22,460 nt of DNA, taken from a virus. The position numbers and the translations under genes are program-made. This document shows positions 1,194 to 18,824 of this stretch, in pieces (position 1 is the first letter of the stretch; every line of letters starts with the position of its first letter). The notes under the pieces are model-generated. The model was given only the letters and a program-made list of their open reading frames with translations. It did no database searches and was not told the origin of the DNA. Location of the stretch: the IMG/VR virus record IMGVR_UViG_3300042560_000597, positions 1-22,460 of that record, one strand, 5' to 3'.

Positions 1194-1592
1194 TTGGCCG
1201 TCACGTTCACCATCCCCGGCGAGCCCGTCCCGCAGCCGAGGCCACGAGTCTCGACTCGGGGCGGGTTCGCACGGGCGTATGTGCCCAAAGAGCACCCGGT
1301 GCATGCGTACCGGCACTTGCTGGCAGCAGCTGCTCGAGCGGCCGGGCTGGGCGAGACCGGCGAGCCTCTGAACGTGGTGATCGACGCCGTTTTTCAGCGG
1401 CCGAAGTCGCACATGACCAAGGCTGGCGTGAAGCCCACGGCACCACGGCTACCGAGGCCCGACGTGGACAACCTGGCGAAGGCCGTGCTGGACGCACTGC
1501 AGGACGTGATGGGCGACGACACGCTAGTGGCCCGCCTAGTGGTCGAGAAGAGCTACGGACAGGAGGCACGGACGACCGTGCGGATCTCGTGA
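1194..1592 (+). CDS. rusA: RusA family Holliday junction resolvase
   Basis: RusA is a dimeric endonuclease that cuts four-way DNA junctions, which phages make during recombination and replication and must remove before packaging. The protein is 132 aa, the usual size. The N-terminus, FTIPGEPVPQPRPR, is the typical RusA opening strand. The catalytic signature PDVDNLAKAVLDALQ occupies residues 89..103, giving D90, D92, K96 and D100 as metal-binding or active-site candidates, followed by GDD at 107..109. The start is TTG 1194, three bases after the previous stop and in the same frame; no ATG or GTG fits the conserved beginning. Ribosome binding is weak, so translation is probably coupled to the preceding gene. 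Its stop overlaps the start of the next gene as GTGA. Confidence 0.9.
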   Translation: MAVTFTIPGEPVPQPRPRVSTRGGFARAYVPKEHPVHAYRHLLAAAARAAGLGETGEPLNVVIDAVFQRPKSHMTKAGVKPTAPRLPRPDVDNLAKAVLDALQDVMGDDTLVARLVVEKSYGQEARTTVRIS

Positions 1593-2257
1593 GCGAGCCA
1601 CAGTACGCCGTGTTCAACGACTACGAGCGGCACGCTCTCGGTGCCATGAGCTCGCACACGTACGAGATCGACGCCAAGCGGCTCGGCTTCACGCTGGCTC
1701 GGTATAAGTTCGTGGCTCGTGTGCTGGCCGGCTGCGATTGGGTGCTGGAGATCGGCTGCGGCGATGCGTTCGCCACCCGCATCGTGGCCCAGGCCGTCGG
1801 CAACGTCATCGCCACCGACTTCGACGCCGCCTTCATCGACGAGGCCCGCTCCCGGCAGCGGCCAGGCAACGTGATGCTGATGCAGCACGACATGGTGGCC
1901 GGGCCACGCTACGTGCCGGATCGTCTGCCGAAACTCTTCGACGCCGCCTACGCCCTAGACGTGCTCGAGCACATCCCGCCGCACCATGAGGGGGCGTTTC
2001 TTGGCAACGTGGCCCTTAGCATCGGCGAGTACGGCACGTTCATCTGCGGGATGCCTTCGCTGGAGTCGCAGCCGCATGCGTCCGAGCTCAGCCGGGCCGG
2101 GCATGTGAACTGCAAGACCGAGGACGGGCTGCGGTCCACGCTCAAGCGGTGCTTCCGAAACGTCTTCGTGTTCGGTATGAATGACGAGACTCTCCACACG
2201 GGCTACGGGCCGATGTGCCACTACCGGCTTGCCATCTGCACGGGAGCAACGCTGTGA
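1589..2257 (+). CDS. class I SAM-dependent methyltransferase (small-molecule/glycan type)
   Basis: A 222-aa protein with the Rossmann-type methyltransferase core. Motif I is VLEIGCGDA at residues 52..60, an acidic end of strand 2 is ATDFD at 75..79, and motif IV-like YALDVLEHIPP is at 121..131. This pattern belongs to the UbiG-like Methyltransf_11/25/31 families, not to DNA methylases, since no DPPY or PCQ motif is present. The start is GTG 1589, which overlaps the RusA stop (GTGA). The frame is open far upstream, but that part lies over rusA and the secreted protein gene and is discounted. The next gene, a glycosyltransferase, overlaps its stop in the same way. This suggests that the enzyme methylates a sugar or sugar-linked acceptor made by the neighbouring transferases; the substrate is unknown. 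Confidence 0.82.
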   Translation: MSEPQYAVFNDYERHALGAMSSHTYEIDAKRLGFTLARYKFVARVLAGCDWVLEIGCGDAFATRIVAQAVGNVIATDFDAAFIDEARSRQRPGNVMLMQHDMVAGPRYVPDRLPKLFDAAYALDVLEHIPPHHEGAFLGNVALSIGEYGTFICGMPSLESQPHASELSRAGHVNCKTEDGLRSTLKRCFRNVFVFGMNDETLHTGYGPMCHYRLAICTGATL

Positions 2258-3021
2258 GCGTGTCTGTCGTCATCCCGACGTGGGACCGAGCGGCCACGCT
2301 GGGCCGTGCCATCGTGTCGTCTGCGTGCCAGAGCCCGGCCGAAGTCGTCGTGATCGACGACGCCAGCACGGACGACACGCCCGGCATCGTGAAGCAGCTG
2401 CAGGGCGTCTACCCGTGCATCCGCTACGTGCGGCACCACGAGAAGGCAGCGGATTGGCAAGCCGCTGCGGCAACGGTGTACCCGTCGCTCGTGGGCTCGC
2501 ACGTCATCTGCATGGGGGCCGACGACCGCCTGCTTCCCGGCATCGTCGAGAGCGTGGAACGGTTCCCGACGGCCGCCGTGGTGTTCCACGACTACAAGGT
2601 GGCGAGCCCGGCCGGGCAGATCGTGGGCCACGTCGGCTGCGGGCTGGAGTCCACGACGACCATGACGCCGGCCGACGTTCGCCGCCGGCTGCGGGAGTGG
2701 CCCGTGCCCACGGAGACGGGCATCGGGGCGGCAATCCAGTTGCAGTGGCTGCTCAAGCTCGGCCAGCACCAGTGGTGGAACATGGGGCCGTGGAGCGACT
2801 GCATCGCCTACAGCGTCGTGGCCGGCACCGCCGGGGCTGTCTACGTGCCGCAGGACGGGGCCGTCTTCACGGACGACACCGCTGGCTACGGGCACACGCA
2901 CCGCGCGGGTCCCGAGGCCGCGGAGTACATGCACCGAGTGCGGCAGTTCCTGCGGTCCACCAACTTCCCGTGGAGCGTGTCGGCCGCCCTGTGCGGCAAG
3001 CGAGGAGTGCCGTATGCCTGA
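2254..3021 (+). CDS. glycosyltransferase family 2-like protein
   Basis: A 255-aa protein with the N-terminal half of a GT-A fold. SVVIPTWDR (residues 4..12) is the first strand, VVVIDDASTDDT (31..42) carries the nucleotide-binding aspartates, and GADDRLLPG (88..96) takes the place of the DxD metal-binding motif. These are hallmark positions of family 2 transferases, which move a sugar from a nucleotide-sugar to an acceptor in the cytoplasm. The C-terminal part (about 150..255) is less typical and probably sets the acceptor. The start is GTG 2254 in a GTGA overlap with the methyltransferase gene; the end overlaps the next gene by eight bases. The acceptor may be phage DNA, a virion protein or a host envelope glycan. 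Sequence alone does not decide between these. Confidence 0.85.
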   Translation: MSVSVVIPTWDRAATLGRAIVSSACQSPAEVVVIDDASTDDTPGIVKQLQGVYPCIRYVRHHEKAADWQAAAATVYPSLVGSHVICMGADDRLLPGIVESVERFPTAAVVFHDYKVASPAGQIVGHVGCGLESTTTMTPADVRRRLREWPVPTETGIGAAIQLQWLLKLGQHQWWNMGPWSDCIAYSVVAGTAGAVYVPQDGAVFTDDTAGYGHTHRAGPEAAEYMHRVRQFLRSTNFPWSVSAALCGKRGVPYA

Positions 3022-3901
3022 CCTAGATGCCGACCTGTGGATGCCGCACCCCGACTTCGCCGAGGAGTTCGACCGCCGCCACGCCGAAGGGCTCGAGCGG
3101 CTGCGGCACTCGTCCATCGCCGTCGTCGGCCTGGCTCGCAACTGCGGCCCGCAGCTGGCCGACAACCTGCGGCGAGTCGAGGCCCTCGGCCAGCATTGCA
3201 AGTCGTGGCAGCTGCATATCGAGAGCAACGACTGCACGGACGACACTCTGGACGTGCTGGCCGAGTTCTCCCGCCGGCACAGTCACGCCACGTTTCACTA
3301 CGAGGTCTTAGGTCGCCCGCACCTGCCGGGTGAGTTCGCCGGCCGCCGCACCGTGGCACTCGCCGAGTACCGGCACGCTTGTCAGCAGTGGGTGCGGCAG
3401 TGTGCCGCACGCTCCGACTACGTCATCGTCATGGACTTCGACTTATGGGCGGGCTTCTCGCAGCACGGGCTGGTAAACGGCGTCGGCTGCCTCGTTGAGA
3501 AGCAGGGTGCCTACGGCATGGCCAGCGTGAGTTTGTTTCAGTACGACTTCGGCAATGGCCCGCAGTGGGCTCACTATGACCTGTGGGCGTTGCGTGGCGT
3601 TGGCCAGCGGGACTGCTACTGGGACCAGTACCGAGGCGGCCGAGGCGGGTTCGGATACACATGGATGCCGCCCGTGGGATCGCCGCCCGCTCTCGTGTCG
3701 AGTGCGTTCGGCGGCATGGCGATCTACCGCACCGATGCCTACCTGGCCGGCACGTACGACGGCACGACGGACTGCGAGCATGTGCCGTTCCACAAGGGCA
3801 TCGCCCGGGCCACTGGGCAGATGCTGTATGTGTGTCCGTCGATGAGAACGATCGTGTCGTGGATGGAGCCATGCGAGGCGACACCGCAACCATCAGCCTG
3901 A
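3014..3901 (+). CDS. GT-A-fold glycosyltransferase-like protein (Mnn9/Anp1 or Cap59-like)
   Basis: A 295-aa protein. SIAVVGLARNCG (residues 34..45) and LHIESNDCTDDT (67..78) resemble the first strands of GT-A transferases, VIVMDFDLW (137..145) contains a DxD-type motif, and FGGMAIYR (232..239) followed by CEHVPFH (254..260) matches the acceptor and catalytic end. This order recalls the eukaryotic Anp1/Mnn9 mannosyltransferase and Cap59 families and their phage or bacterial relatives. ATG 3014 lies eight bases inside the previous gene, with a GAGGAG Shine-Dalgarno five to ten bases before it. The last 31 bases overlap the following gene. With the preceding methyltransferase and family 2 gene it forms a three-gene sugar-modification cassette. 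Confidence 0.75.
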   Translation: MPDLDADLWMPHPDFAEEFDRRHAEGLERLRHSSIAVVGLARNCGPQLADNLRRVEALGQHCKSWQLHIESNDCTDDTLDVLAEFSRRHSHATFHYEVLGRPHLPGEFAGRRTVALAEYRHACQQWVRQCAARSDYVIVMDFDLWAGFSQHGLVNGVGCLVEKQGAYGMASVSLFQYDFGNGPQWAHYDLWALRGVGQRDCYWDQYRGGRGGFGYTWMPPVGSPPALVSSAFGGMAIYRTDAYLAGTYDGTTDCEHVPFHKGIARATGQMLYVCPSMRTIVSWMEPCEATPQPSA

Positions 3902-4248
3902 CGGCGTTCCGTGCTGACTGGGCGACGCACATGCCGATGCGTGCATTGTGCGAGCGGTGGACTATTTCCCGGGACCAAGTCATCCGCCTGGCCGTCGTGT
4001 GGCAGCTGCCCCGGCGGCACGACCGCAAGCTCAGGGCCAAGCCGGTACGTCAGCGGGATCCGACGACCACCGAGATCCGAGACGCCTGCCTGCAGATCCA
4101 AGCGACGTGGAGCGACGACACCCGTGAGGATCGCCGGGTGACGAAGACACGGCACGTCAGCATTCAGCGGATCCCGATGGATCACGAGACGAAAGAGGCA
4201 GTTGGCTACGAGGGCAACCTAGCGGACCTATGGGAGCAGGACCGATGA
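3871..4248 (+). CDS. helix-turn-helix DNA-binding protein, 125 aa
   Basis: The first half reads as a short helix-turn-helix: MRALCERWTISRDQVIRL followed by AVVWQLPRRHDRKLR (residues 23..55). This has the spacing of a helix, a turn at the serine, a recognition helix, and a basic wing, similar to GcrA- or resolvase-type domains. The second half contains DPTTTEIRDACLQIQATWS and a basic TREDRRVTKTRHVSIQR segment. I recall similar blocks from small planctomycete and phage proteins, without a known function. The start is ATG 3871, with GGAG in front and a 31-base overlap into the glycosyltransferase gene. It is a plausible regulator of the early or middle genes. The next gene overlaps its stop as ATGA. 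Confidence 0.65.
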   Translation: MRGDTATISLTAFRADWATHMPMRALCERWTISRDQVIRLAVVWQLPRRHDRKLRAKPVRQRDPTTTEIRDACLQIQATWSDDTREDRRVTKTRHVSIQRIPMDHETKEAVGYEGNLADLWEQDR

Positions 4249-4517
4249 CCATGGCACCGAAGGGCCGCGAGGACGTGCTGCGTCGGATCGTCGTGGAGTA
4301 CGGCCAGCAGTACGCCTACATCTACATGACCGACGGCAGCGGAAAACTCATCGACGAAGAGGTTTTCAAGCAGCCGTTTCGCCTAGACCGCAAAGACGCC
4401 TTTGAGGAGGCGAAGGATTCCTACGACGCAGCGTACGACTGGCTGAACGAGACGATCAACGTCACGCCACTGCAAGAGGATGCCGGTGGGGAGGCAGAAT
4501 CCGATGAGGAGGACTAG
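4245..4517 (+). CDS. small acidic hypothetical protein, 90 aa
   Basis: I do not recognise this protein. The start is taken as ATG 4245, which overlaps the preceding stop (ATGA) and has GCAGGA eight bases before it; an in-frame ATG at 4230 is possible but less well placed. The sequence starts with a basic segment (MAPKGREDVLRRIV) and ends in a very acidic tail (EDAGGEAESDEED). In between is a mixed region with several aromatic residues (YGQQYAYIYMTDG). It has no cysteines or membrane segment. Acidic tails of this kind occur in DNA mimics and in chaperone-like phage proteins, but nothing here is specific enough for a call. Confidence 0.6.
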   Translation: MTMAPKGREDVLRRIVVEYGQQYAYIYMTDGSGKLIDEEVFKQPFRLDRKDAFEEAKDSYDAAYDWLNETINVTPLQEDAGGEAESDEED

Positions 4518-4519
4518 CC

Positions 4520-4822
4520 ATGCCCGACTACGGTGCCACCCCGCAAGAGCTCGAGCAGTACGGTAACGGCCTGAACCTGTGGCAGTCGCTCATGCTGCTG
4601 CAGCGATGGGCCCCGCTCATCGGCTACGGCCAGCGGTTCATGGCTGAGCCCGACCCGTACCGGCGTTCTCTCGTCGTGGCGGACGCCGTCGAGTGGCTGG
4701 CCGCACAGACGCACGCCAAGGTGGACGACCAGTTGGTGAGCAAGCTGGCCGCCGTGCTCAAGACGCCTGCGGGCGAGGATCTCGTGCGTTGGGTGATGCA
4801 GCAGGTGGAGGCCGTCCGGTGA
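4520..4822 (+). CDS. small helical hypothetical protein, 100 aa
   Basis: The start ATG 4520 has GAGGAGGA directly upstream, a very good ribosome-binding site located within the end of the previous gene. The protein is almost all predicted helix, with conserved-looking tryptophans (NGLNLWQSLMLLQRW, VEWLAAQ, LVRWVMQQ). There is no signal or clear transmembrane segment. It sits directly before a two-helix membrane protein and overlaps it as GTGA, so the two are probably translated together and may act together. No family is recognised and no function is assigned. Confidence 0.6.
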   Translation: MPDYGATPQELEQYGNGLNLWQSLMLLQRWAPLIGYGQRFMAEPDPYRRSLVVADAVEWLAAQTHAKVDDQLVSKLAAVLKTPAGEDLVRWVMQQVEAVR

Positions 4823-5430
4823 GCCATGAGTCACTCGTACGCACCGCCGCCGTGGTGGCGGCAGTTGCTTTCCTCGCTGCGCCGTACCGGCAGCAAATCG
4901 CTGGGTACCTCGCTAAGGCCGCCGAAGCCGCCAAGGCCCACGGAGCCCTCGCCGGCCGAATCGCCGCAGCGGCCCTCTTGATCGCCGCAGCCTGGGGCAA
5001 GGTGCCGATGCCGAGCCTGCCGAGCACGCCGGCCGTGCCCGTGATTACCGTCGATGCCCCGAGCTCTGCGATGCGTGCCACCGTCCAGCCGATTGCTGAC
5101 GCACTCAAGGCCGCACCGCTTGGGGATCGCATGCTGTGGGCCAACCTGTGGAGCAAGGCGGCCACGGTCGTGGCCGGCGACGAACTGGGCACCGAAGTGG
5201 TGCTGACCGACACTCGTGCCCTGCGGATGTTCACCACGCTCGCTCTCGACATCGGGTGGCGGCGAATCGGTGAGAACAAGCCCGGCACCTACGCCGGCCT
5301 CCGCCAGGCCGTTGAGAAGGCTATGGGCGACACGCTCAGCCTCGACGCCCGCCCGATCGACGTTGAGACACGGGCCAAGGTCGTCGAGCTCTACAAGGCA
5401 ATCGCATGGGCCGGCACGGCCAAGGAGTGA
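4819..5430 (+). CDS. hypothetical membrane-anchored protein, 203 aa
   Basis: The start is GTG 4819, overlapping the preceding stop (GTGA). Two hydrophobic helices are visible: about residues 9..22 (TAAVVAAVAFLAAP) and 46..60 (GRIAAAALLIAAAWG), separated by an alanine- and lysine-rich amphipathic stretch. A proline-rich linker (PMPSLPSTPAVPV) follows, then a soluble domain of about 130 residues with no recognised motif. The layout suggests an inner-membrane anchor with a larger soluble domain on one side. Its position two bases-plus upstream of the papain-like peptidase gene (5434) suggests a shared function, perhaps placement of the enzyme at the membrane or accessory work in lysis. That is inference only. 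Confidence 0.6.
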   Translation: MSHESLVRTAAVVAAVAFLAAPYRQQIAGYLAKAAEAAKAHGALAGRIAAAALLIAAAWGKVPMPSLPSTPAVPVITVDAPSSAMRATVQPIADALKAAPLGDRMLWANLWSKAATVVAGDELGTEVVLTDTRALRMFTTLALDIGWRRIGENKPGTYAGLRQAVEKAMGDTLSLDARPIDVETRAKVVELYKAIAWAGTAKE

Positions 5431-5433
5431 GCG

Positions 5434-6432
5434 ATGCCTTGGGATGCACAGTCTGAGTACCTGGCTGGCCTCGTCGGCGTCTACGCCGATCCGGCTGCGT
5501 CTGAGCGGCTCACTCAGTACCTGCTGATGCAGGGCCAAGCACCGGACGGCGGCACGACGTGCCGACGGTACGGGCTAGTGGGCAGCGGTGCGGGGAAACT
5601 GTGGGCGCCGTTTGAGATCATGCAGCGGGTGTTTCCTGACTGCCTGCCGGCATCGGCCCAGACCCGTGGCGACTGCGTCAGCCACTCGACCCGAAACGCT
5701 TGCCTCGGCACGCTCGCCTGCGAAATCGCCGCTGGCAAGCCCGACGAAGTCACCGGCCTTGTGGAAGGTGCTCCTGATCTTGCAGACGCTGCCCGGCGGG
5801 ACGGCGTGCTAAGCACTGAGGCCATCTACTGGTTTCGCCAGCACGGCGGCGACGGTTGGAGTTGCGACCACGCCGCCGAAGTGGTGCTGAAAGAATCCGG
5901 CCTGTGGGTGCGTAAGCGGTACGAAGCCCTCGGCATCGACCTGACGAAGTACGACGGCAAGCTGGCCGGCAAGTGGGGAGCAACAAAGCCGCCAGCCAGC
6001 GTGCTCGAGCTCGGCCGGCAGCATCTCGTTCGCACGGCGACACGGGCCCGCACGTTTGAAGAAGTGCGTGATCTGATCGCCAACGGCTACTGCATCAGCA
6101 GCTGCGGCTCGGAAGCGTTCATCAACACGCGAGACACCAACGGCGTGTCCAAACGATCCGGCGGCGTCTGGTACCACGCCATGGCGTACCTGGGCGTGGA
6201 CGACCGAGACGAAACCCGCAAGGCGTACGGCCAGCCGCTCGTGCTCGTGGCCAACTCGTGGGGCAAGTGGAACACCGGCCCCCGGGCGGTGATGGGGACG
6301 ACGCTTGAGATTCCGCACGGATCGTTTTGGGCCCGCTGGTCTGACATCAGTGGCCGCTACTCAATCGCCTTCTCTGGCGTGAACGGCTGGCCTGCCCAGC
6401 AGTTGCCCAACTGGACGGGGGACGTGCTGTGA
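5434..6432 (+). CDS. papain-like (C1A-type) cysteine peptidase
   Basis: A 332-aa protein containing all four catalytic positions of the papain family in the right order. Q76 and C81 lie in QTRGDCVSHS (oxyanion glutamine and nucleophile), H248 in VWYHAMAYLGVDD, and N274 in LVANSWG, the NSWG signature itself. The glutamine-to-cysteine distance is five residues, against six in papain. There is no signal peptide and no long propeptide, unlike most secreted C1A enzymes; about 70 residues precede the catalytic region. The substrate is presumably protein or a peptide cross-link. The neighbours are membrane proteins, a lipoprotein and an adhesin-like gene, so roles in lysis, in breaking a proteinaceous envelope, or in virion maturation are all open. 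The start ATG 5434 has AAGGAG nine bases before it. Confidence 0.82.
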   Translation: MPWDAQSEYLAGLVGVYADPAASERLTQYLLMQGQAPDGGTTCRRYGLVGSGAGKLWAPFEIMQRVFPDCLPASAQTRGDCVSHSTRNACLGTLACEIAAGKPDEVTGLVEGAPDLADAARRDGVLSTEAIYWFRQHGGDGWSCDHAAEVVLKESGLWVRKRYEALGIDLTKYDGKLAGKWGATKPPASVLELGRQHLVRTATRARTFEEVRDLIANGYCISSCGSEAFINTRDTNGVSKRSGGVWYHAMAYLGVDDRDETRKAYGQPLVLVANSWGKWNTGPRAVMGTTLEIPHGSFWARWSDISGRYSIAFSGVNGWPAQQLPNWTGDVL

Positions 6433-6695
6433 GATTCCTAGTGGCTCTGTGCATCGTGCTGGTGGGCTGCGTTATGACGCTGCCGGCTGACGATGCGTCG
6501 CTGACCGCCGAGTTGGCTGCCGAGACTGCCCGTGCTCTGGTGAAGATGCGGGCCACGCCCAGCCCTGAGCCGACGCCTGCAAGCGACAAGTGTTCGACGT
6601 GCGGTGCGAAGAATCCGCCCGGCGGCGGCTGGCTTGGTGACGGCACCGTGAAGGTGCCATGCCCTGAGTGCAACAAGCAGAGGGCCAAGAAATGA
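6429..6695 (+). CDS. putative lipoprotein with a DnaJ-like zinc-ribbon motif
   Basis: An 88-aa protein starting at GTG 6429, in a GTGA overlap with the peptidase gene. The N-terminus VRFLVALCIVLVGC is a short signal sequence ending in a lipobox (L11-V12-G13-C14), so the mature protein is expected to be lipid-anchored at C14. A short alanine-rich helix and a proline linker (PSPEPTP) follow. The C-terminus carries two CxxC pairs, C55-x2-C58 and C78-x2-C81, separated by a glycine-rich GDGTVK stretch, much like one DnaJ zinc repeat. A zinc-binding, membrane-tethered protein next to a peptidase is unusual. An outer-membrane spanin role is conceivable but unproven. Confidence 0.65.
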   Translation: MRFLVALCIVLVGCVMTLPADDASLTAELAAETARALVKMRATPSPEPTPASDKCSTCGAKNPPGGGWLGDGTVKVPCPECNKQRAKK

Positions 6696-7012
6696 CCCGC
6701 CAGCAACTCATCGACGCCGTGTGGAACGAACTGCCGGCCAAGCGGTATTTGCTCGGCCGCAAGCGTGGCGAGCGGCTCATCGGCCGTGCCCTCCGCAAGT
6801 GGCCCGTGCCCGTGCTGTACCAGTGCGATCCGCAGCAGACCGCCGTGGTGGGCCAGCACCTGGCCAAGAGCATCGAGCGGCAAGAGCGTGCCGAGTACGG
6901 CATGGGGTTTATCGCCAGCATCATCCTGGCGGCCATCATCAGCGAGATCGTGAAGATCCTGATTCGTCGCTGGCTGGAGAACCGAGTCGAGATGCTGGAG
7001 GCCCTGGCGTGA
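6692..7012 (+). CDS. small single-helix membrane protein, 106 aa
   Basis: The start ATG 6692 overlaps the lipoprotein stop (ATGA). Residues 1..70 are basic and soluble (AKRYLLGRKRGERLIGRALRK), with one cysteine. A single hydrophobic helix, MGFIASIILAAIISEIVKIL, covers about residues 71..90 and is followed by a basic, amphipathic end. The topology has the soluble part N-terminal and one membrane helix near the C-terminus. No family is recognised. The order lipoprotein, this protein, then a second membrane protein with a coiled coil invites comparison with a holin/spanin group, but no motif confirms it. Confidence 0.6.
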   Translation: MTRQQLIDAVWNELPAKRYLLGRKRGERLIGRALRKWPVPVLYQCDPQQTAVVGQHLAKSIERQERAEYGMGFIASIILAAIISEIVKILIRRWLENRVEMLEALA

Positions 7013-7242
7013 CTGAGGCGACGAAGGACACGCTCTACACGGCCCTGCGTGATTACGGATTCTCGGTCGTGGTCGCCCTGGCGGCCGGCTGGGTGCTTCG
7101 CAACGACGTTCTGATCCCGTTGGTCGAAGAACATCGAGTGTTCGTTCGCAGCCTGAGCGAGACGCAGAGCGAGATCAGCAAGGCAGTCACCGAGCAGACC
7201 AAGCTGCTGTACGAGATGAAGCACATGCGAGACACCCAATGA
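7009..7242 (+). CDS. small membrane protein with C-terminal coiled coil, 77 aa (holin- or spanin-like)
   Basis: The start is GTG 7009 in a GTGA overlap with the previous gene. The first 17 residues are polar. One membrane helix follows (FSVVVALAAGWVL, about 18..30), and then a charged helical tail of about 45 residues with heptad-like hydrophobic spacing (VFVRSLSETQSEISKAV, TEQTKLLYEMKH). One N-terminal membrane helix followed by a coiled coil is the layout of inner-membrane spanin subunits, and is also seen in some small holins. Adjacency to a lipoprotein and a peptidase makes a lysis role reasonable. The call rests on topology only. The next gene overlaps the stop as ATGA. Confidence 0.6.
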   Translation: MTEATKDTLYTALRDYGFSVVVALAAGWVLRNDVLIPLVEEHRVFVRSLSETQSEISKAVTEQTKLLYEMKHMRDTQ

Positions 7243-8465: not shown

Positions 8466-8822
8466 ATGTCCCATGTGAAGATCAAGCGGTACGAGCGTGA
8501 CGTGAGCATCGTGCTGCACAGCACGACCACCCTGGCCACCACGCTCAGGCTGGACGATATGGCTGGCGGTGTGGTGTCGCTTGGCACCATGACCACCAAC
8601 GCCACCACGCTTCAGACTTGGGGCGGCACCAGTGTCGATGGTGCGTTCCGTCGCATCTACGGGGCAGATGGCTCGGCAGCCGACATCACGCTGGCCCCCT
8701 CGAGCACGGACGGCAGGATCTACGCCCTGCCTGATGCGGTGTTCGCCGTGTCGTTTCTCAAGATCGTCTCGGCCACCACAAACAGCACGGGCACTCTCGG
8801 CATCGTGTCGCTCAAGAGCTAA
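8466..8822 (+). CDS. hypothetical beta-rich protein, 118 aa (possible virion protein)
   Basis: The start ATG 8466 follows ACGGAG with seven bases of spacing. The sequence begins with a charged segment (MSHVKIKRYERDV) and continues as Thr-, Ser-, Ala- and Gly-rich beta strands (LATTLRLDDMAGGVVSLGTM, TLQTWGGTSVDGAF), ending FLKIVSATTNSTGTLGIVSL. Composition and strand pattern fit a small structural or decoration protein. There is no signal, membrane segment or cysteine motif. The family is unknown. Its stop overlaps the start of the HNH gene as TAATG. Confidence 0.6.
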   Translation: MSHVKIKRYERDVSIVLHSTTTLATTLRLDDMAGGVVSLGTMTTNATTLQTWGGTSVDGAFRRIYGADGSAADITLAPSSTDGRIYALPDAVFAVSFLKIVSATTNSTGTLGIVSLKS

Positions 8823-9154
8823 TGCCCCAACGCATCCCATGCCACAGGCCGCTGCGTCTGCGTGCGTCCCGCCCACAGCGAGACGAGAGCACCAGGCCAA
8901 GCGCGGCAGCCCGTGGCTATTGCTCAAAGCGTCATCGACTGTGGCGGCAGGCCGTGCTCACGCGGGATGCGTGGCAATGCCAGGCCTGTGGCGTGGTCTG
9001 CTCACAAAAGGGGCAAGCCCACGCTGACCACGTATCCCCAGTGATGGAAGGTACGGATCGGTGCATGGATGGTAGGAGCCGCTACGACGTTTCTGCAGGC
9101 CAGTGTCTGTGTCATGGATGCCACACACGCAAGACACACCGCGACGCCCGCTAA
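8822..9154 (+). CDS. HNH endonuclease
   Basis: A 110-aa protein with a compact HNH domain in its C-terminal two thirds. A zinc-binding pair C53-x2-C56 (CQAC) precedes AHADHVSP, with the first catalytic histidine at H70. CLCHGCHTRKT (95..105) then supplies the second cysteine pair (C97, C100) and the final histidine H101. The basic stretch YCSKRHRLWRQAVLTRDAW before the core is typical of phage HNH proteins. In HK97-type phages an HNH nuclease beside the terminase genes helps DNA cleavage during packaging; the ligase and terminase genes follow here after one intergenic region. The start ATG 8822 is in a TAATG overlap. The N-terminal 30 residues are basic and low in complexity, so a slightly later start is possible. 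Confidence 0.85.
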   Translation: MPQRIPCHRPLRLRASRPQRDESTRPSAAARGYCSKRHRLWRQAVLTRDAWQCQACGVVCSQKGQAHADHVSPVMEGTDRCMDGRSRYDVSAGQCLCHGCHTRKTHRDAR

Positions 9155-9458: not shown

Positions 9459-9482
9459 TCAGCATCTCTGGAGGTGCGTGCC

Positions 9483-10232
9483 ATGTCGGTGATGCTTGCG
9501 AAGAACTGGGCCGGCAGCGACCCGGCCGGCTGGTGGATGAGCGAGAAGCTCGATGGCGTGCGTGCGGTGTGGGACGGGTACACGCTGGCGACGAGAGCGG
9601 GCAACGAGATCAACGCCCCGGCGTCGTTCGTGTCGTCGCTGCCGCGTGGCGTCAGCCTCGACGGGGAACTGTGGGCCGGCCGTGGCACGTTTCAGAGCGT
9701 GGTCGGTGCGTACCGCCGGATCGACGCTGAGTCGTGGCGGCCGATCCGATACGCCGTGTTCGACGCCCCGGCGGCGGCTGGCGGTTTCGAGGAGCGGCAG
9801 CAGCTGCTGCGTGACGTGCTGACCGGAAGCACCGGCCCTGCGTTCGTGCTCGAGCAGCAGCGGTGCGGCGGCCGTGACGAGCTCGCTGCCGTGCTGTCCA
9901 AGATCGTGCGGGCAGGCGGCGAAGGCGTGATGCTCCGCGAGCCGGGTAGTGCGTACCAGCCGAAGCGGTCGGCCTCGCTTCTGAAGGTCAAGACGTTCCT
10001 GGACGCTGAGGCCACGGTGATCGGGTACGAGCCGGGCACGGGCCGCAACCGCTCCAGCGTTGGTGCTCTGGTGGCACGGATGCAAGACGGCACCGTGTTC
10101 CGTTTATCGTCAGGGCTGACGGACTCGCTGCGGCGTAAGCCGCCACGGGTTGGCACCGTGTTTACGTTCAAGTTCCAGCAGATGACAGACGCCGGCGTGC
10201 CACGGTTTCCAGCGTTCCTGCGGATAGCGTGA
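9483..10232 (+). CDS. minimal ATP-dependent DNA ligase (LigE/LigB-like)
   Basis: The enzyme seals DNA nicks using ATP, through a lysine-AMP intermediate. At 249 aa it is a minimal form with only the nucleotidyltransferase and OB domains. Motif I is EKLDGVR at residues 21..27, with K22 the adenylated lysine. LDGELW (59..64) is the motif III region, EGVMLREP (147..154) motif IV and LLKVK (166..170) motif V; the OB domain ends with RVGTVFTFKF and FPAFLRI. The opening MLAKNW...GWWMSEKLDGVRAVWDG is typical of bacterial Lig E proteins, which often carry a periplasmic leader; here there is none, so the enzyme should be cytoplasmic. GGAGG (9470..9474) is nine bases before ATG 9483. Its stop overlaps the small terminase start as TGATG. 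Confidence 0.9.
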   Translation: MSVMLAKNWAGSDPAGWWMSEKLDGVRAVWDGYTLATRAGNEINAPASFVSSLPRGVSLDGELWAGRGTFQSVVGAYRRIDAESWRPIRYAVFDAPAAAGGFEERQQLLRDVLTGSTGPAFVLEQQRCGGRDELAAVLSKIVRAGGEGVMLREPGSAYQPKRSASLLKVKTFLDAEATVIGYEPGTGRNRSSVGALVARMQDGTVFRLSSGLTDSLRRKPPRVGTVFTFKFQQMTDAGVPRFPAFLRIA

Positions 10233-10690
10233 TGGGTAAGGGCCGAAAGCCGACGCCTAAGCCGATTCTTAAGCTCCGGGGCTCTCGCGTTAGAGGCCCG
10301 CATAAGAGCGGCATTGAGGCACCGGCGGGCATTCCTGAGCCGCCTAACTACCTGTGCGAGATCGGCCGGGCTGAGTGGCAACGTATCGTGCCGATGCTTG
10401 AGGCGTCCAAGGTGATGAGCATGCGGCACCAGCACACGCTGGCCGCCTACTGCGACGCCCTGGCCGACATGGTGAAGGCCGAGGCGGAACTGAAGCAGCA
10501 CGGGGCCACGTTCATGGACGACAAGGGTAGGGTGATGAATCACCCGGCCTGGTATCGGAAGAAGGACGCCCGCCTGCACATGCTGCGGTTCGCCGAGCAG
10601 TTTGGCCTCACGGCGTCCGCTTTGGCGAGAGTCTCTGCCGTTGAGCAAGCAGCGTCCAACGACGACGAAGACCGCCTCATGTTCGGCTGA
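10232..10690 (+). CDS. terS: terminase small subunit (P27 family)
   Basis: The small terminase recognises the viral DNA and brings it to the large subunit for packaging into proheads. The protein is 152 aa counted from ATG 10232, which overlaps the ligase stop as TGATG (a GTG at 10229 in frame is possible). The sequence opens with a basic GKGRKPTPKPILKLRGS segment, then PEPPNYLCEIGRAEWQRIVPMLEASKV, the typical P27-family (Phage_terminase_4) core, followed by the helix block HQHTLAAYCDALADMVKAEAEL and the HPAWYRKKDARLHMLRFAEQFGLT region that ends the domain. Position directly before the large terminase gene confirms the call. The two genes overlap by up to 50 bases, depending on the start of the next gene. 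Confidence 0.9.
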   Translation: MGKGRKPTPKPILKLRGSRVRGPHKSGIEAPAGIPEPPNYLCEIGRAEWQRIVPMLEASKVMSMRHQHTLAAYCDALADMVKAEAELKQHGATFMDDKGRVMNHPAWYRKKDARLHMLRFAEQFGLTASALARVSAVEQAASNDDEDRLMFG

Positions 10691-12200
10691 GAAGCCGTGC
10701 AATAAGTGCTCCTCGTGCCTAGCGGTGCGGTTCTTTGAGAAGCACCTGACGCACGCCAAGGGCGAGCTCGGTGGCAAGCCGTTCCTGCTCCAGCCGTGGC
10801 AGCGTGACTACCTGCGGGCGTTGTTCGCCGAGGACGCCGGCCGGCGAAAGGTACGCACGTCGCTGCTGGCCCTGCCACGCAAGAACGGCAAGAGCACGCT
10901 GGCTGCTGGCATCGCACTCAGGTGCATGCTCGAGGACGAGCCTGGGGCGGAAGTGTATTCGTGTGCGGCTTCACGAGATCAGGCCCGGCTGGTGTTCGAC
11001 ACCGCACGCATCGCCGTGGAGCAGTCGCCGGTGCTGCGGCAGCATCTCAAGGTGTATCGCAACGCCATCGTGCGAGAGTCCACGCACGCCACCTACAAGG
11101 CACTTTCTGCCGAGGCTGGAATCCAGCACGGGCTTTCGGCTCACGCGGTGATTTTCGACGAGCTCCATGTAAGCAACCGTGAGATGTGGGAGGTGATGCT
11201 CTCGAGCCAGGGGGCCAGACGCAACCCGCTCACGGTGGCGTTGACGACGGCGGGCCACGACAAGAAGTCGGTGTGCTGGGAGGTGTGGAAGTACGCCGAG
11301 GCTGTCCGCACCGGGGCGATCAAAGACGAGACGTTTCTGCCGGCGATCTACTGTGCCGATCCTGCAGCCGATTGGAAGGACGAGAAAACGTGGGCTATTG
11401 CCAATCCGAATCTCGGCGTTTCAGTAAAGCTCGACTTTCTCAGAAGCGAGTGTCAGCGGGCGGTTGAGATGCCTGCATACGAGAACACTTTTAAGCAACT
11501 TTATTTGAATTGCTGGACAGAGCAGGATACCCGCTGGATTGCGATGCATAACTGGGCGAAAGGCAACACGCCCTGCCCGGTGCCACTTGCCGGCCGTGAC
11601 TGCTTTGCCGGGCTCGACCTAGCCACGACGTTCGACACGACGGCGTTCGTGATTCTGTTCCCGCTGGACGACGGCACTTTTTGGGTGGAGCCGCACTTCT
11701 GGATTCCTGAAGAGAACCTGCACCAGCGAGTCCGTAGAGACAAGGTGCCGTATGACGTGTGGCAGCGGAAGGGCCTGCTTCACGTCACACAGGGCAACGT
11801 CACGGACTACTCGCAAGTGCGTGCCGACATCAACGACCTGGCCAAGAAGTACGGGTTTCGGCAGATAGCTGTGGATCGCTGGAACTCGACTCATCTCACG
11901 CAATTGCTGCAAGAGGACGGGTTGCCCGTTGTAGGTTTCGGGCAGGGCTACGGCTCCATGTCAGCGCCTTCTCTTCAGGTCGAGGCATGGATTTGCGGCT
12001 CTAAGCTTTTGCACGGCGGCCACGAAGTGCTGACGTGGCAGGCAGGAAACGTGGCGATTCAGACAGACGGGCAGAACATCAAGCCGAGCAAGCAGCGAAG
12101 CCATGAGCGGATTGACGGCATTGTGGCTCTAGTGATGGCGGCAGGCGTCTACGCAACATCGTCATCAAACGCAGGCACCTGGGACATCATCACGCTATGA
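10641..12200 (+). CDS. terL: terminase large subunit (Terminase_1/HK97-type)
   Basis: The packaging motor: an ATPase joined to a nuclease. From TTG 10641 it is 519 aa. The Walker A-type motif is PRKNGKST (residues 79..86) and Walker B is VIFDELH (170..176). The RNase H-like nuclease has the three acidic residues D326 (GLDLA), D412 (AVDRW) and D492 (RIDGIVAL). Before the ATPase is CNKCSSC (20..26) and then RFFEKHLTHAKGELGGKPF. This order is common in planctomycete-type large terminases and argues against a start later than about 10701. No ATG exists in this part; TTG 10641 is the best guess, with a weak GAGAG before it. It overlaps the small terminase gene. The stop overlaps the portal start as ATGA. 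Confidence 0.92.
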   Translation: MSKQRPTTTKTASCSAEKPCNKCSSCLAVRFFEKHLTHAKGELGGKPFLLQPWQRDYLRALFAEDAGRRKVRTSLLALPRKNGKSTLAAGIALRCMLEDEPGAEVYSCAASRDQARLVFDTARIAVEQSPVLRQHLKVYRNAIVRESTHATYKALSAEAGIQHGLSAHAVIFDELHVSNREMWEVMLSSQGARRNPLTVALTTAGHDKKSVCWEVWKYAEAVRTGAIKDETFLPAIYCADPAADWKDEKTWAIANPNLGVSVKLDFLRSECQRAVEMPAYENTFKQLYLNCWTEQDTRWIAMHNWAKGNTPCPVPLAGRDCFAGLDLATTFDTTAFVILFPLDDGTFWVEPHFWIPEENLHQRVRRDKVPYDVWQRKGLLHVTQGNVTDYSQVRADINDLAKKYGFRQIAVDRWNSTHLTQLLQEDGLPVVGFGQGYGSMSAPSLQVEAWICGSKLLHGGHEVLTWQAGNVAIQTDGQNIKPSKQRSHERIDGIVALVMAAGVYATSSSNAGTWDIITL

Positions 12201-13492
12201 GCGAGACAGCCACCAACGACTACCGGATGCACGAGCTCCGTGGCATCGACTGGAGCGAGATGGGCGGCGGCCGCACGTCATCCGGCATCCGGGTAAACGC
12301 CGACACCTCGATGGCCTGCTCGGCCTACACGGCGTGCATCCGTGTCATTTCGGATTCGGTCTCGTCTCTGCCGCTGCACCTGTACGAGCGAGTGACGACG
12401 GGCGGCAAGCGTAAGGTGCCCGAGCACCCGCTGTACCGCCTGCTGCACACGCAGCCGAATCCGTGGCAGACGGCTCAGGAGTTTCGGGATTGGATGACCG
12501 GGCTCTACCTGCACTACGGGGCGTCGTACGCCGAGAAGCGGCCCGGCCCCCGCGGCACGGTCGGCGAGCTCTGGCCGCTGCACAGTTCACGCATGGAGGA
12601 GGAGCGGCTGGAGAACGGCCAGATTCGCTACCTCTACCGTGAGCCGGATGGCCGGCAGACGGTGTACCGCCAAGAGCAGATCTTCGCCCTGCGGTACACG
12701 ACGAGCGACGGCATTCACCCGATTCCGACGTACCGGCTGTTCCAAAACGCCATCGGCCTGGCCCAGGCGTTGGAGGCCCACGGGGCCACCTACTTCGGCA
12801 ACGGTGCCCGGCCCGGCATCGTGCTGGAGAGCGACAACCCGATTCCCGTCGAGGCGGCCGAGCGTCTGCGTGAGCAGTGGGAGCGGATGCACCGTGGGCC
12901 GGATCGTGCCCACCGGACGGCTGTGCTGCCGAACGGCGTGAAGGCCCACGAGCTCTCGCAGAGCAACGAGGCGGCCCAGTTCCTTGAGACACGCCAATAC
13001 CAAGTCATCGAAATCTGCCGGGCGTTTCGTGTGCCGCCGCACATGATTCAGGATCTCACCCGCAGTACCTATTCGAACATTGAAGTTCAGGGCACCGAGT
13101 TCGTGCAGCACTGCCTTCTCAGTCATCTCAAGCGATGGGAAGCGGCCATTGCCCGTGACCTGATTGACGACGACGAAAAGTACTTCGCTGAGCACAACGC
13201 CAACGGCCTGCTGCGTGGCGACCACGCGAGCCGCTCGGCCTACTACGTCTCGGCGATCCAAAACGGCTGGATGAGCATTAACGAAGTGCGTGAGATGGAG
13301 AATCTCAACCCGCTCGGTCCCGAGGGCGACAAGCACTTCATCCAACTCAACATGACCACGCTGGACAAGGCAGGCGAGGAGCCGCCTGCACCGGAGCCGG
13401 TTGCCGAGCCGCCGGTGGTCGAAGCCGAGGACAGCCCGGCTGACGAGCTCGAGGACGACGCCGAAACAGAGGAGCAGACCGATGGAGATTGA
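12197..13492 (+). CDS. portal protein (HK97 gp3 family)
   Basis: The portal forms the twelve-subunit ring at one capsid vertex through which DNA enters and leaves. The protein is 431 aa. SMACSAYTACIRVISDSVSSLPLHLYER is the usual start of the HK97 portal domain, with HPLYRLLHTQPNPWQTAQEF following it, and the helical region FVQHCLLSHLKRWEAAI lies in the second half. WMSINEVREMENLNPLGPEGD is the family's typical end, where residues of the form N-E-x-R-x-x-E-x-x-P occur. The last 50 residues are a proline- and acid-rich tail. ATG 12197 overlaps the terminase stop (ATGA). The end overlaps the protease gene by 11 bases. Confidence 0.92.
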   Translation: MSETATNDYRMHELRGIDWSEMGGGRTSSGIRVNADTSMACSAYTACIRVISDSVSSLPLHLYERVTTGGKRKVPEHPLYRLLHTQPNPWQTAQEFRDWMTGLYLHYGASYAEKRPGPRGTVGELWPLHSSRMEEERLENGQIRYLYREPDGRQTVYRQEQIFALRYTTSDGIHPIPTYRLFQNAIGLAQALEAHGATYFGNGARPGIVLESDNPIPVEAAERLREQWERMHRGPDRAHRTAVLPNGVKAHELSQSNEAAQFLETRQYQVIEICRAFRVPPHMIQDLTRSTYSNIEVQGTEFVQHCLLSHLKRWEAAIARDLIDDDEKYFAEHNANGLLRGDHASRSAYYVSAIQNGWMSINEVREMENLNPLGPEGDKHFIQLNMTTLDKAGEEPPAPEPVAEPPVVEAEDSPADELEDDAETEEQTDGD

Positions 13493-14117
13493 ACGCCGGG
13501 ACTTCGCCTTTGAGGATGACAACGAGCTCGTGGTCGAGAGCCGTGCCGACGGCCGGGCCGCCATCGTTGGCTACGCCGCCGTGTACAACCGGCTGAGCCT
13601 CGACCTGGGCGGGTTCAAGGAGGAGATCCTGCCGGGTGCGTTCGACAAGATTCTCGGCCGCCAGCGTGGCAAGGGCGACGTGGTCGCATTGTTCAACCAT
13701 GACAGCAACATCGTGCTGGGCCGCACGTCGTCTGGCACGCTGGAGTTGTCCAGTGACGAGAAGGGCTTGCGGTACGTGGTGACGCCGCCCGTGAGCCGGG
13801 CCGACGTGCTCGAACTCATCCAGCGGCGTGATGTGCGTGGCTCGTCGTTCGCCTTCACGGTGGACCCGAAGCACGAGTCGTTTCGTACCGGCGAGGACGG
13901 CAAGGCCGTGCGGCAGATCCGAGAGGTTTCGGGCCTGTACGACGTTGGGCCGGTGCTGGTGCCGGCGTACCCACAGACGAGTGCCGGCGTGGCCATGCGT
14001 TCCTACGAGGCGTGGCTGGCGTCACAGGGCGAGCCAGCGGCCCCGCCTGCCGTGCGTTCGGCCATGCGTGGCGTCGCCCAGGCGTGGGCCGCCATGCTGA
14101 GGCTTCGCAATGTCTGA
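13482..14117 (+). CDS. prohead maturation protease (HK97 gp4 / S78 family)
   Basis: The protease cleaves the delta domain from the major capsid protein inside the prohead and then itself. The protein is 211 aa from ATG 13482. The motif order is that of the family: AIVGYAAVYN (residues 27..36), FKEEILPGAF (45..54), and LFNHDSNIVLGR (70..81) with catalytic H73. RGSSFAFTV (119..127) contains the serine nucleophile, S121 or S122, and LYDVGPVLVPAYPQTSA (152..168) closes the core. Gene position between portal and capsid is standard. The frame is open 81 bases upstream, but that part lies in the portal gene. The C-terminal tail of about 40 residues is alanine-rich. The next small gene starts inside its last codons. 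Confidence 0.9.
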   Translation: MEIERRDFAFEDDNELVVESRADGRAAIVGYAAVYNRLSLDLGGFKEEILPGAFDKILGRQRGKGDVVALFNHDSNIVLGRTSSGTLELSSDEKGLRYVVTPPVSRADVLELIQRRDVRGSSFAFTVDPKHESFRTGEDGKAVRQIREVSGLYDVGPVLVPAYPQTSAGVAMRSYEAWLASQGEPAAPPAVRSAMRGVAQAWAAMLRLRNV

Positions 14118-16187: not shown

Positions 16188-16925
16188 ATGCTCGTCCGTG
16201 TCGGTGACACGCAGGTGGATATCCGAGTCGAGGCCGTGCTGTCGATGCCCCGGCTGGGGTTCACCAGCAACTTCTTCGCCTGGGCTCAGGCCCTGATGCC
16301 GCTGGGCATCCGGCCGACTCTCGGCACGGGCTGCTTCTGGGACCAAGTGAACACCCGGGTCTTCGAGCAGTTCATCGACAAGGCCGAGTACCTGCTCGCC
16401 ATCGATTACGACACGTTTTTCACCAAGGAAGACGTGGAGACGCTCTTCGCCATGGCGATGACGTTTCAGTGCGATGCGATCACGGGGCTGCAAACCAAGC
16501 GTGAGGACGGCCGCCCCATGCTCACGCTCAAGGGCACGCTGGATTCGCCGCCGGATGCCGGGCACACAAGCCTGCCACCGTCGTGGTTTGCTGAGCCGAT
16601 TCAAGAGGTGGACACGGCCCACTTCGGCCTCACGGTGATCAGCACGGCCGCACTCAAGCGAACCAAGAAACCGTGGTTCTGGTCGAAGCCAGACCCCGAG
16701 GGTTCGTGGGGCGACGGCCGGCTAGATCCCGACATCTGGTGGTGGAAGAACTGGCGAGAGAGCGGCAACCGGATCTTCGTCTCGCCCCGGGTCGTGCTGG
16801 GACACGGCGAGTACGTCGTGACGTGGCCCGGCCGCAACCTGACCACGCCCGTGTTCCAGTGGGCGAATGAGTTCACCAGTACGAGCAAGCGGCCCGAAAC
16901 TGCATGGAGGGTGGGGGAATCATGA
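16188..16925 (+). CDS. phage glycosyltransferase-like protein inside the head module
   Basis: A 245-aa protein with GT-A-type features. LLAIDYDTFF (residues 69..78) contains a DxD motif (D73, D75) at the end of a hydrophobic strand. AHFGLTVISTAAL (144..156) is the usual strand before the active site, and LDPDIWWWKNWRESGNRIF (179..197) followed by VVLGHGEYVVTWP (202..214) provides an acidic and histidine-containing acceptor end. The order resembles family 2-like transferases in phage structural clusters. The start is ATG 16188, after the capsid terminator hairpin with GAGGGG upstream. The next gene overlaps the stop as ATGA. Its place between head and connector genes suggests glycosylation of a virion protein, with host sugar-nucleotides as donors. 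It is not a close relative of the two transferases at 2254..3901. Confidence 0.75.
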   Translation: MLVRVGDTQVDIRVEAVLSMPRLGFTSNFFAWAQALMPLGIRPTLGTGCFWDQVNTRVFEQFIDKAEYLLAIDYDTFFTKEDVETLFAMAMTFQCDAITGLQTKREDGRPMLTLKGTLDSPPDAGHTSLPPSWFAEPIQEVDTAHFGLTVISTAALKRTKKPWFWSKPDPEGSWGDGRLDPDIWWWKNWRESGNRIFVSPRVVLGHGEYVVTWPGRNLTTPVFQWANEFTSTSKRPETAWRVGES

Positions 16926-17161
16926 AGATAAGGATGCTGATGAGCTACCGGCACTACAAGCGTGGCCAGGTGCTGCCGGACGTTCCCGACGGCATGGCGA
17001 ACGATTGGATCAGCCGAGGCATCGCCGTCGAGGACAAGCAGCAGACCATCGAGACGGCGGCCATCGAGCACCGGGCCGAGACGGCCGACGCCACGCCCAG
17101 GAAACGAGGACGCCCCCGTGCAGTACCGCAGCCTGACCAGAGCGACGCCGCCGGCGGTTGA
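16922..17161 (+). CDS. small hypothetical protein, 79 aa
   Basis: The start ATG 16922 overlaps the transferase stop (ATGA), and GGAGGGTGGGG precedes it. The first 40 residues (MKIRMLMSYRHYKRGQVLPD, then a segment ending ANDWISRGIAVED) match a common type of short phage protein: a small beta-fold followed by a helix, usually found in head-connector clusters. The C-terminal half is low in complexity and basic (TPRKRGRPRAVPQP, an AT-hook-like RKRGRPR). It overlaps the next gene by 44 bases in another frame. The function of this protein type is not known to me. Confidence 0.65.
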   Translation: MKIRMLMSYRHYKRGQVLPDVPDGMANDWISRGIAVEDKQQTIETAAIEHRAETADATPRKRGRPRAVPQPDQSDAAGG

Positions 17162-17717
17162 GCCCGTCTCGGTATCCGAGGCCAAGGCCCATCTGCGTGT
17201 GGACATCAGCGACGACGATTCCTACATCTCTACGCTGATCACGGCGGCCCGTGAGTGGTGCGAGCAGTACCTGGACCGCACGCTGATCAACACGCAGTGG
17301 ACGATGCGGCTGGACTCGTTCCCCTACGAGATCGAGCTGCCCCGGCCGCCGATTGCCACGAGCGGCACAGCCACGGCGGTGTCGCTCACCTACACGCTGG
17401 GCGACGACTCCACGGCCACGCTGTCCACGACGGCGTACCGAGTGGACCGCAACTCAACGCCTGGCGTGGTGCGGCAGCTGCGTGCCGGAACGTGGCCGGC
17501 GAACCTCGACGACTACAACGCCGTGGCTGTGACGTGGTGGGCCGGCTACGGGGCCAGCGGCACGAGCGTGCCAGCCGCAATCCGCCACGCCATCCTGATG
17601 CTCGTTGGGCACTGGTATGAGTCACGCTCCAGCGTGCTCACCGGCAGCATCTCCAAAGAGATCGAGTTCGGCGTGAAGTCGCTTCTCGACTCGCAACGCT
17701 GGGGATCGTACCGATGA
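17118..17717 (+). CDS. head-tail connector protein (HK97 gp6-like)
   Basis: The connector ring attaches to the portal after DNA is packaged. The protein is 199 aa from GTG 17118, which has GAGGA seven bases before it; no ATG fits. The opening PVSVSEAKAHLRVD followed by DDSYISTLITAAREWCEQYLDRTLI is the signature of the gp6/Phage_gp6-type family. The middle is a beta domain (LPRPPIATSGTATAVSLTY...), and the C-terminal helix block is IRHAILMLVGHWYESRS, again typical. The next gene starts inside the stop codon as ATGA. The first 14 residues lie in another frame over the end of the preceding gene. Confidence 0.88.
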   Translation: MQYRSLTRATPPAVEPVSVSEAKAHLRVDISDDDSYISTLITAAREWCEQYLDRTLINTQWTMRLDSFPYEIELPRPPIATSGTATAVSLTYTLGDDSTATLSTTAYRVDRNSTPGVVRQLRAGTWPANLDDYNAVAVTWWAGYGASGTSVPAAIRHAILMLVGHWYESRSSVLTGSISKEIEFGVKSLLDSQRWGSYR

Positions 17718-18112: not shown

Positions 18113-18510
18113 GCATCGACGGCCGCATCACTGTTGACGCCCTCTTCCACGACACGTCTGGCACGGCCAGGCTGAAGGTGCAGTCGTTGCAGTCCGTCAC
18201 CGGGTACACCTCGGGCGAAGTCGTGGCCGTCACCGGCACCGCCGGAACCTCGAGCGTGTCCATTAACTTCGGCTCGTACCGCAACGCCGCCGGCACGCTT
18301 GTGTCGCTGGGCTCGCCGCTGAAGCTGGCCTTTGCGTGGAGCGGCTCTAGCCGCCGCACCCTCAACGACGGCGGCGACGATGCGTGGCGGCTCATTTCGT
18401 CCAACGGCGAGGTGGCCGTGACGCAGATGGCTGACAGCGAACCCGTGCCCCAGTTGCTGGCTGGGGCTGGCACCGGCACCTACAAGCTCATCATGTGGGG
18501 GCCAGACTGA
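18109..18510 (+). CDS. hypothetical protein, second member of a tandem pair, 133 aa
   Basis: The start ATG 18109 overlaps the stop of its paralogue (ATGA). The frame stays open further upstream, but the conserved beginning MSIDGRITVDALFHDTSGT fixes the start. YRNAAGTLVSLGSP aligns with the matching block in the first copy, and both end in a strand with a Val/Met-Trp pair (LVWSAS, IMWGPD). Apart from these blocks the two have diverged strongly. The codon use here is like that of the surrounding late genes. A paralogous pair inside the connector region is unusual. The function is unknown. The next gene starts in its stop as TGATG. Confidence 0.65.
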   Translation: MSIDGRITVDALFHDTSGTARLKVQSLQSVTGYTSGEVVAVTGTAGTSSVSINFGSYRNAAGTLVSLGSPLKLAFAWSGSSRRTLNDGGDDAWRLISSNGEVAVTQMADSEPVPQLLAGAGTGTYKLIMWGPD

Positions 18511-18824
18511 TGAACTCTGGCCGGCTCCGAGAGCGAGTGACGGTGCAGCAGGCCACGGACAGCCGCACGCCGCTGGGCGAGGCTACGCAGACGTGGGGCA
18601 CCTTCGCTGAGCGTTGGGCCAGCGTCGAGGGCATCTCGGCCCGGGAGTTCTTCCTGCAGGGCCAGCAGCAGACCGAGGCCAGCCACCGGGTGCGGATGCG
18701 GTATCTCACCGGACTCACGCAGCAGATGCGTCTGCAGTGGCGTGGCCGCACGCTGGAGATCGTCAGCATCCTCGAGCACGGCAACCGCACCGAGCACGAG
18801 CTGCTGTGCCAGGAGGCGATCTAG
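18510..18824 (+). CDS. head closure / head-tail adaptor protein (SPP1 gp16-like, Phage_H_T_join)
   Basis: Closes the connector so that packaged DNA does not leak, and joins the tail. The protein is 104 aa from ATG 18510 (TGATG overlap). The start GRLRERVTVQQATDSRTPLG followed by TWGTFAERWASVEGISAREFF is the classic opening of the family; the strand pattern RVRMRYLTGLTQQMRLQWRG, then LEIVSILEHGN and a short end HELLCQEA completes it. The length, 104 aa, fits the family. Its order after a gp6-like protein and before an HK97 gp10-like gene is also as expected. Confidence 0.9.
   Translation: MNSGRLRERVTVQQATDSRTPLGEATQTWGTFAERWASVEGISAREFFLQGQQQTEASHRVRMRYLTGLTQQMRLQWRGRTLEIVSILEHGNRTEHELLCQEAI

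Follow-up and report, generated by a model that had tools for sequence, protein, structure and literature searches.

We analysed 22,460 bases of an uncultivated virus (IMG/VR record IMGVR_UViG_3300042560_000597), hereafter called the window, and consider it moderately probable that a papain-fold endolysin and its membrane partners form the lysis module of planctomycete-infecting phages, the enzymatic activity being predicted from sequence. The preliminary description of this DNA had proposed an unusual lysis module of four genes, beginning with the peptidase. The membrane partners and the lack of a conventional lysin lend this proposal circumstantial support, but its spanin part is weak. The families of the four genes do recur beside the peptidase, but the cassette is larger than was described, and its most conserved partner, encoded at 4819-5430, had been missed. 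The results suggest that a widespread group of viruses lyses its hosts with an enzyme type whose use on its own for this purpose had gone unrecognised. The features are listed in Table 1.

Table 1. Genes of the proposed lysis cassette and nearby genes in the window
Feature	Position	Strand	Details
Small soluble protein, recurrent upstream neighbour	4245..4517	+	Cluster C12, 14 loci
Small soluble protein, recurrent upstream neighbour	4520..4822	+	Cluster C8, 16 loci
Partner "gene B", N-terminal TM hairpin and five-helix domain	4819..5430	+	203 aa, GTG start
Papain-fold cysteine peptidase, proposed endolysin	5434..6432	+	332 aa, ATG start; Q76, C81, H248, N274
Lipoprotein, lipobox LVGC, half DnaJ-type zinc finger CxxC...CPxC	6429..6695	+	GTG start
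One-TM protein	6692..7012	+	106 aa, TM 73-91; family near the peptidase in 17 loci
One-TM protein with charged coiled-coil-like tail, holin-like (BhlA/UviB-type) or inner-membrane spanin-like	7009..7242	+	77 aa, GTG start, TM 20-38
Terminase small and large subunit genes	10229..12200	+	About 4 kb downstream of the peptidase, same direction; TerL of relatives confirmed by Pfam
Separate prohead protease	13401..14117	+	S78 family in the complete relative

The peptidase family and its probable hosts

All four catalytic residues of a papain-type enzyme are present in the peptidase, N274 lying in an NSWG motif, and a hydrophobic N-terminal segment is absent from the window copy. In an alignment, Q76, C81, H248, N274 and W276 were 100% invariant among the 82-83 homologues that cover these positions, and the motif is therefore not due to chance. 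Three prophage copies carry Gln in place of the catalytic Asn. The order Gln-Cys-His-Asn with the NSW motif is that of C1A papain-like peptidases (clan CA). An AlphaFold2 model from 19 diverse sequences (alignment A2) reached a pLDDT of 88.8 and a pTM of 0.89, and a Foldseek search with it gave xylellain (PDB ID 3OIS, E 1.9e-10) as the best solved structure, followed by cathepsins B, the matches ranging from 1.9e-10 to 1e-5. Matches in the viral structure library BFVD were phage C1A peptidases and phage lysins, some of them annotated as peptidoglycan binding-like or Lysin A. The papain-type assignment of the preliminary description, with its four catalytic residues and no signal peptide, is thus borne out by the open reading frame, the homologues, the model and the structural matches.

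The sequence itself had no match in Pfam, PHROG or the PDB beyond calpain-8 at E 0.36, and neither the C1A profile PF00112 nor the CHAP, NlpC/P60 and C39 endolysin family profiles matched it. Because the fold is predicted while these profiles are silent, the peptidase represents a papain-fold family missing from the searched libraries. Its predicted fold and catalytic residues support a C1A papain-type cysteine peptidase, like xylellain and cathepsin B in both respects, whereas the window copy differs from these enzymes in its low identity (about 14% across the structural match), the lack of a Pfam match and the lack of a recognisable propeptide.

A profile scan of IMG/VR gave 587 candidate places and at least 535 confirmed relatives, 80 of which were retrieved, with further ones coming from single-protein scans. 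GTDB contigs added six relatives, and a search of 50,697 named phage records gave none. Dereplication at 85% peptidase identity left 46 viral loci, or 58 loci when prophages were counted; genes were called by a codon-usage scorer and neighbours clustered across loci. One homologue (L029:10001-11386, 462 aa) contains 14 cysteines and a large insertion.

Two features point to work of the peptidase outside the cytoplasm, as far as can be read from sequence. By a hydropathy rule, the homologues L160, L162, L168, L169 and L171 from planctomycete chromosomes have N-terminal TM segments; in L161 such a segment follows an over-long predicted start, and in L163 it is weaker. Signal anchors of this kind in prophage homologues favour an extracytoplasmic enzyme. 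Across the 46 viral loci, C144 and C224 are kept together or lost together, the pair being missing in four lineages (L043, L048, L094 and L095). Such coupling is expected of a disulphide and favours the same location. The prophage homologues do not retain the pair.

The viruses that carry this family appear to infect planctomycetes. The profile built on alignment A2 matched 13 of 392 Planctomycetota genomes (one being a seed) and 1 of 396 Bacteroidota genomes (the seed only); with the seeds removed, the counts are 12 of 391 against 0 of 395 (Fisher p 2e-4), which gives statistical support to the planctomycete link suggested earlier. The prophages that contain the loci L168, L169 and L171 carry portal, capsid or tape-measure genes, and on a contig of a Pirellulales MAG (L094) the peptidase is again followed by a small TM gene, TerS, TerL, portal and protease. 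Chromosomes yielded no window-like copy (over 50%), and for the window phage itself the planctomycete host is therefore presumed. Matches in Lokiarchaeota, SAR202 and Flavobacteriales MAGs were set aside as presumably viral contigs in bins. An archaeal-virus or magrovirus origin, for which the literature search was not useful, was dropped once the planctomycete signal had appeared.

Membrane and putative redox partners in the cassette

The most conserved neighbour of the peptidase is the 4819-5430 family, whose members have one or two TM helices or a lipoprotein anchor and a helical domain. It was found in up to 48 of the 58 loci, prophages included, which is an upper estimate because the iterated profile also catches part of some lipoproteins. 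A model of the helical domain had no structural match (best E 0.33), and an inhibitor or a holin is a possible role for this protein. An exported 302-aa protein lying 1.8 kb before the peptidase in another locus (L088:8241-9149) matches both the partner-domain and the thioredoxin profiles.

The three genes that follow the peptidase overlap from stop to start, exactly as had been noted. The first product is indeed a lipobox protein with two CxxC pairs, but the pairs make up one half of a zinc finger of the DnaJ type (CxxCxGxG), which corrects the earlier description. What recurs directly after the peptidase is a protein, secreted or with a lipobox, that carries CxxCxGxG...CPxCxGxG; DnaJ zinc-finger Pfam matches in these homologues are weak (E 0.001-0.004, below the cut-off). 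In L081, L055, L057 and L075 the zinc-finger protein is extended by a thioredoxin domain whose motif is WCGPC or a variant of it, while L024 and L029 have a separate exported thioredoxin near the peptidase. Planctomycete loci (L160, L161, L162, L165, L167 and L170) also have an exported thioredoxin, and the window cassette has the zinc-finger form only. Because the profile was built from cassette members, some of this concentration around the peptidase is to be expected. In one planctomycete genome, an exported protein with a weak PKD-domain match (L163:10576-11541) adjoins the peptidase homologue.

The last gene, 7009-7242, had been taken together with the lipoprotein as resembling a split spanin, a resemblance that is weak. 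A conventional split-spanin module around the peptidase is quite unlikely: the lipobox protein does lie close to a TM and coiled-coil protein in the window, but this lipoprotein carries a zinc finger or, in relatives, a thioredoxin. The coiled-coil family was detected beside the peptidase in only 8 of the 46 viral loci, and in the complete genome G016 its gene lies about 24 kb away. None of the window proteins matched a holin or spanin family in Pfam or PHROG. The layout of 7009-7242, a single TM helix near the N terminus ahead of a charged coiled-coil tail, is also compatible with a holin of the BhlA/UviB type, a likeness that serves as a lead only; 7009-7242 itself, unlike those holins, has no Pfam or PHROG match. 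In marine relatives, proteins of cassette cluster C42 match holin PHROGs (phrog_9987, E 5e-5; phrog_297 in 5 of 34 scanned members, best E 7e-4); for the two small TM proteins of the window there was no match. Upstream of the peptidase in marine relatives, a TM protein with a PAS-like domain (L073:9182-9763; seen by eye, no Pfam match) is followed by a 70-aa two-TM protein (L073:9768-9977), conserved in 8 loci. A promoter and terminator scan and an Rfam search gave nothing informative.

Search for a conventional lysin

The window record had no lysozyme, amidase, SLT, M15_4 or CHAP match in a profile search, in agreement with the earlier remark that it holds no amidase, lysozyme or transglycosylase gene. 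Across 30 viral records, Amidase_2, Phage_lysozyme, SLT and CHAP were never matched, and the single M15_4 match was below the family cut-off. Two relatives, G005 (35,096 bases; it holds locus L008, whose peptidase is about 90% identical to that of the window) and G016 (59,692 bases), were taken as complete because each has a 127-base direct terminal repeat; 29 other records tested had none. In G005, Pfam recognised portal, S78 protease, capsid, terminase, integrase, RecT, RusA, DnaN-like clamp and other genes, and no lysin family. The whole-genome scan of G016 showed no lysin among the 25 of 54 families that were the matches listed, and the otherwise unassigned proteins of both genomes matched 25 families, none of them a wall hydrolase. 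A conventional endolysin elsewhere in the genome, for which the preliminary description had recommended a check, was thus not found in the complete relatives or the 30 records. This absence is firm for the described Pfam families and covers two complete genomes; lysins new to Pfam could hide among uncharacterised genes.

The credible TM or lipobox proteins of G005 are those of the cassette (16361-16603, 16600-16920, 16917-17162 and 18170-18781), other matches to the hydropathy and lipobox rules being tail, clamp, regulatory or unassigned soluble proteins. The sliding clamp of this 35-kb temperate phage (L110:3215-4318) is of the DnaN type and is accompanied by LexA-like and RecT genes. Close relatives of the window carry the peptidase about 3-4 kb before the terminase. 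By eye, a DNA-ligase-like gene (9474-10232) stands directly before the terminase small subunit gene in the window, with an HNH gene (8822-9154) upstream of it.

Recognised lytic proteins are present in 97.4% of the dsDNA phages of a reference set (PMC12596118). Considering this value, the conserved operon ahead of the terminase and the lack of any other recognised lysin, a peptidase conserved together with small TM and lipoprotein genes is most simply explained as part of a lysis cassette.

Proposed mechanism, possible substrates and alternative readings

In the mechanism that we infer, as regards lysis role, holin, substrate and redox step alike, the operon at 4.2-8.1 kb would provide lysis for a temperate tailed phage whose hosts are planctomycetes or a close relative. 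The peptidase would be the wall-degrading enzyme, an endolysin by role, building up in the cytoplasm late in infection. The proteins encoded at 6692-7012 and/or 7009-7242, or the TM hairpin of 4819-5430, would open or depolarise the inner membrane, and the peptidase would then gain the periplasm and cut peptide bonds of the envelope. Two further products may help there: the anchored helical protein and the zinc-finger lipoprotein, which in many relatives is an exported thioredoxin. They could, for instance, open disulphides, maintain the catalytic cysteine in a reduced state, or serve to position or inhibit the enzyme.

Within the same lysis role, a papain-fold peptidoglycan endopeptidase cutting stem or cross-link peptides is a serious if tentative possibility, and a protein wall and the redox partners would then be irrelevant. 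Planctomycetes have lysozyme-sensitive peptidoglycan sacculi (PMC4432640), which would fit; papain-superfamily domains serve in known endolysins, namely N4/N5 of mycobacteriophages (PMC3314691) and CHAP (PMC10318531); and the names of some BFVD matches agree. However, the closest folds are C1A proteases and not C39, CHAP or NlpC, no wall-binding domain was seen, and the recurrent exported thioredoxin partners are left unexplained. A protein-wall substrate would fit a protease acting with a thioredoxin, and an exported papain-type endopeptidase and a thioredoxin/zinc-finger lipoprotein might together dismantle a disulphide-linked, proline- and cysteine-rich protein layer, which we regard as unlikely. 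If true, such protease/thiol-reductase lysis would be a principle not based on peptidoglycan cleavage.

Evidence against a reading as lysis only comes from the prophages L168, L169 and L171, in which the cassette and its peptidase lie among structural genes; a virion role would also fit this arrangement, as it would the position before the terminase in the window. The enzyme would then be packaged or tail-borne and open the envelope at DNA injection or process virion proteins. We give this only a small probability: the family occurs together with lipoproteins and TM proteins, some members have signal anchors that virion proteins do not need, and host lysis would be left without an account. A separate S78 prohead protease also stands against it, and because of this protease a role of the papain-type enzyme in capsid maturation was rejected. 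The glycosyltransferase and methyltransferase genes upstream of the cassette (1589-3901) and the membrane anchors of several cassette products would suit an envelope-modifying or superinfection-exclusion cassette that acts with these glycosyltransferases in a lysogen. Such a function is very unlikely, as the cassette lies in a long operon leading to the terminase, recurs in very divergent viruses whose other neighbours differ, and stands in two complete genomes with no other recognisable lysis enzyme.

As a lysis enzyme, the peptidase would share its clan-level fold and proposed role with the papain-superfamily domains of endolysins, i.e., CHAP and the N4/N5 domains of mycobacteriophage Lysin A (PMC3314691, PMC10318531). 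Those domains are CHAP, NlpC/P60-like or C39-like and often form part of modular proteins that also have wall-binding or second catalytic domains, whereas here a single C1A-like domain is found with no recognised partner lysin in the genome. The N-terminal signal anchor of some planctomycete prophage homologues is shared with SAR endolysins, such as those of phages N4, HP1 and P1; those enzymes, however, are muralytic, and the window peptidase has no anchor. In lambda, the lysis genes (S, R and Rz/Rz1) form a compact operon just upstream of the terminase. The cassette is similar in its compactness, its position and its set of an enzyme, small TM proteins and a lipoprotein, but the enzyme class differs, the anchored helical protein and the zinc-finger/thioredoxin lipoprotein have no lambda counterpart, and a spanin pair is putative.

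The literature searched yielded no lysis proteins for phages of planctomycetes. A family of at least 535 members in environmental viruses, nameless in the databases and unaccompanied by a conventional lysin, would fill this gap. The peptidase is also an enzyme to try on the envelopes of planctomycetes; whether these consist of a protein sacculus, of peptidoglycan or of both has been debated for decades. It further offers a marker gene and a possible hint of the host for uncultivated viruses.
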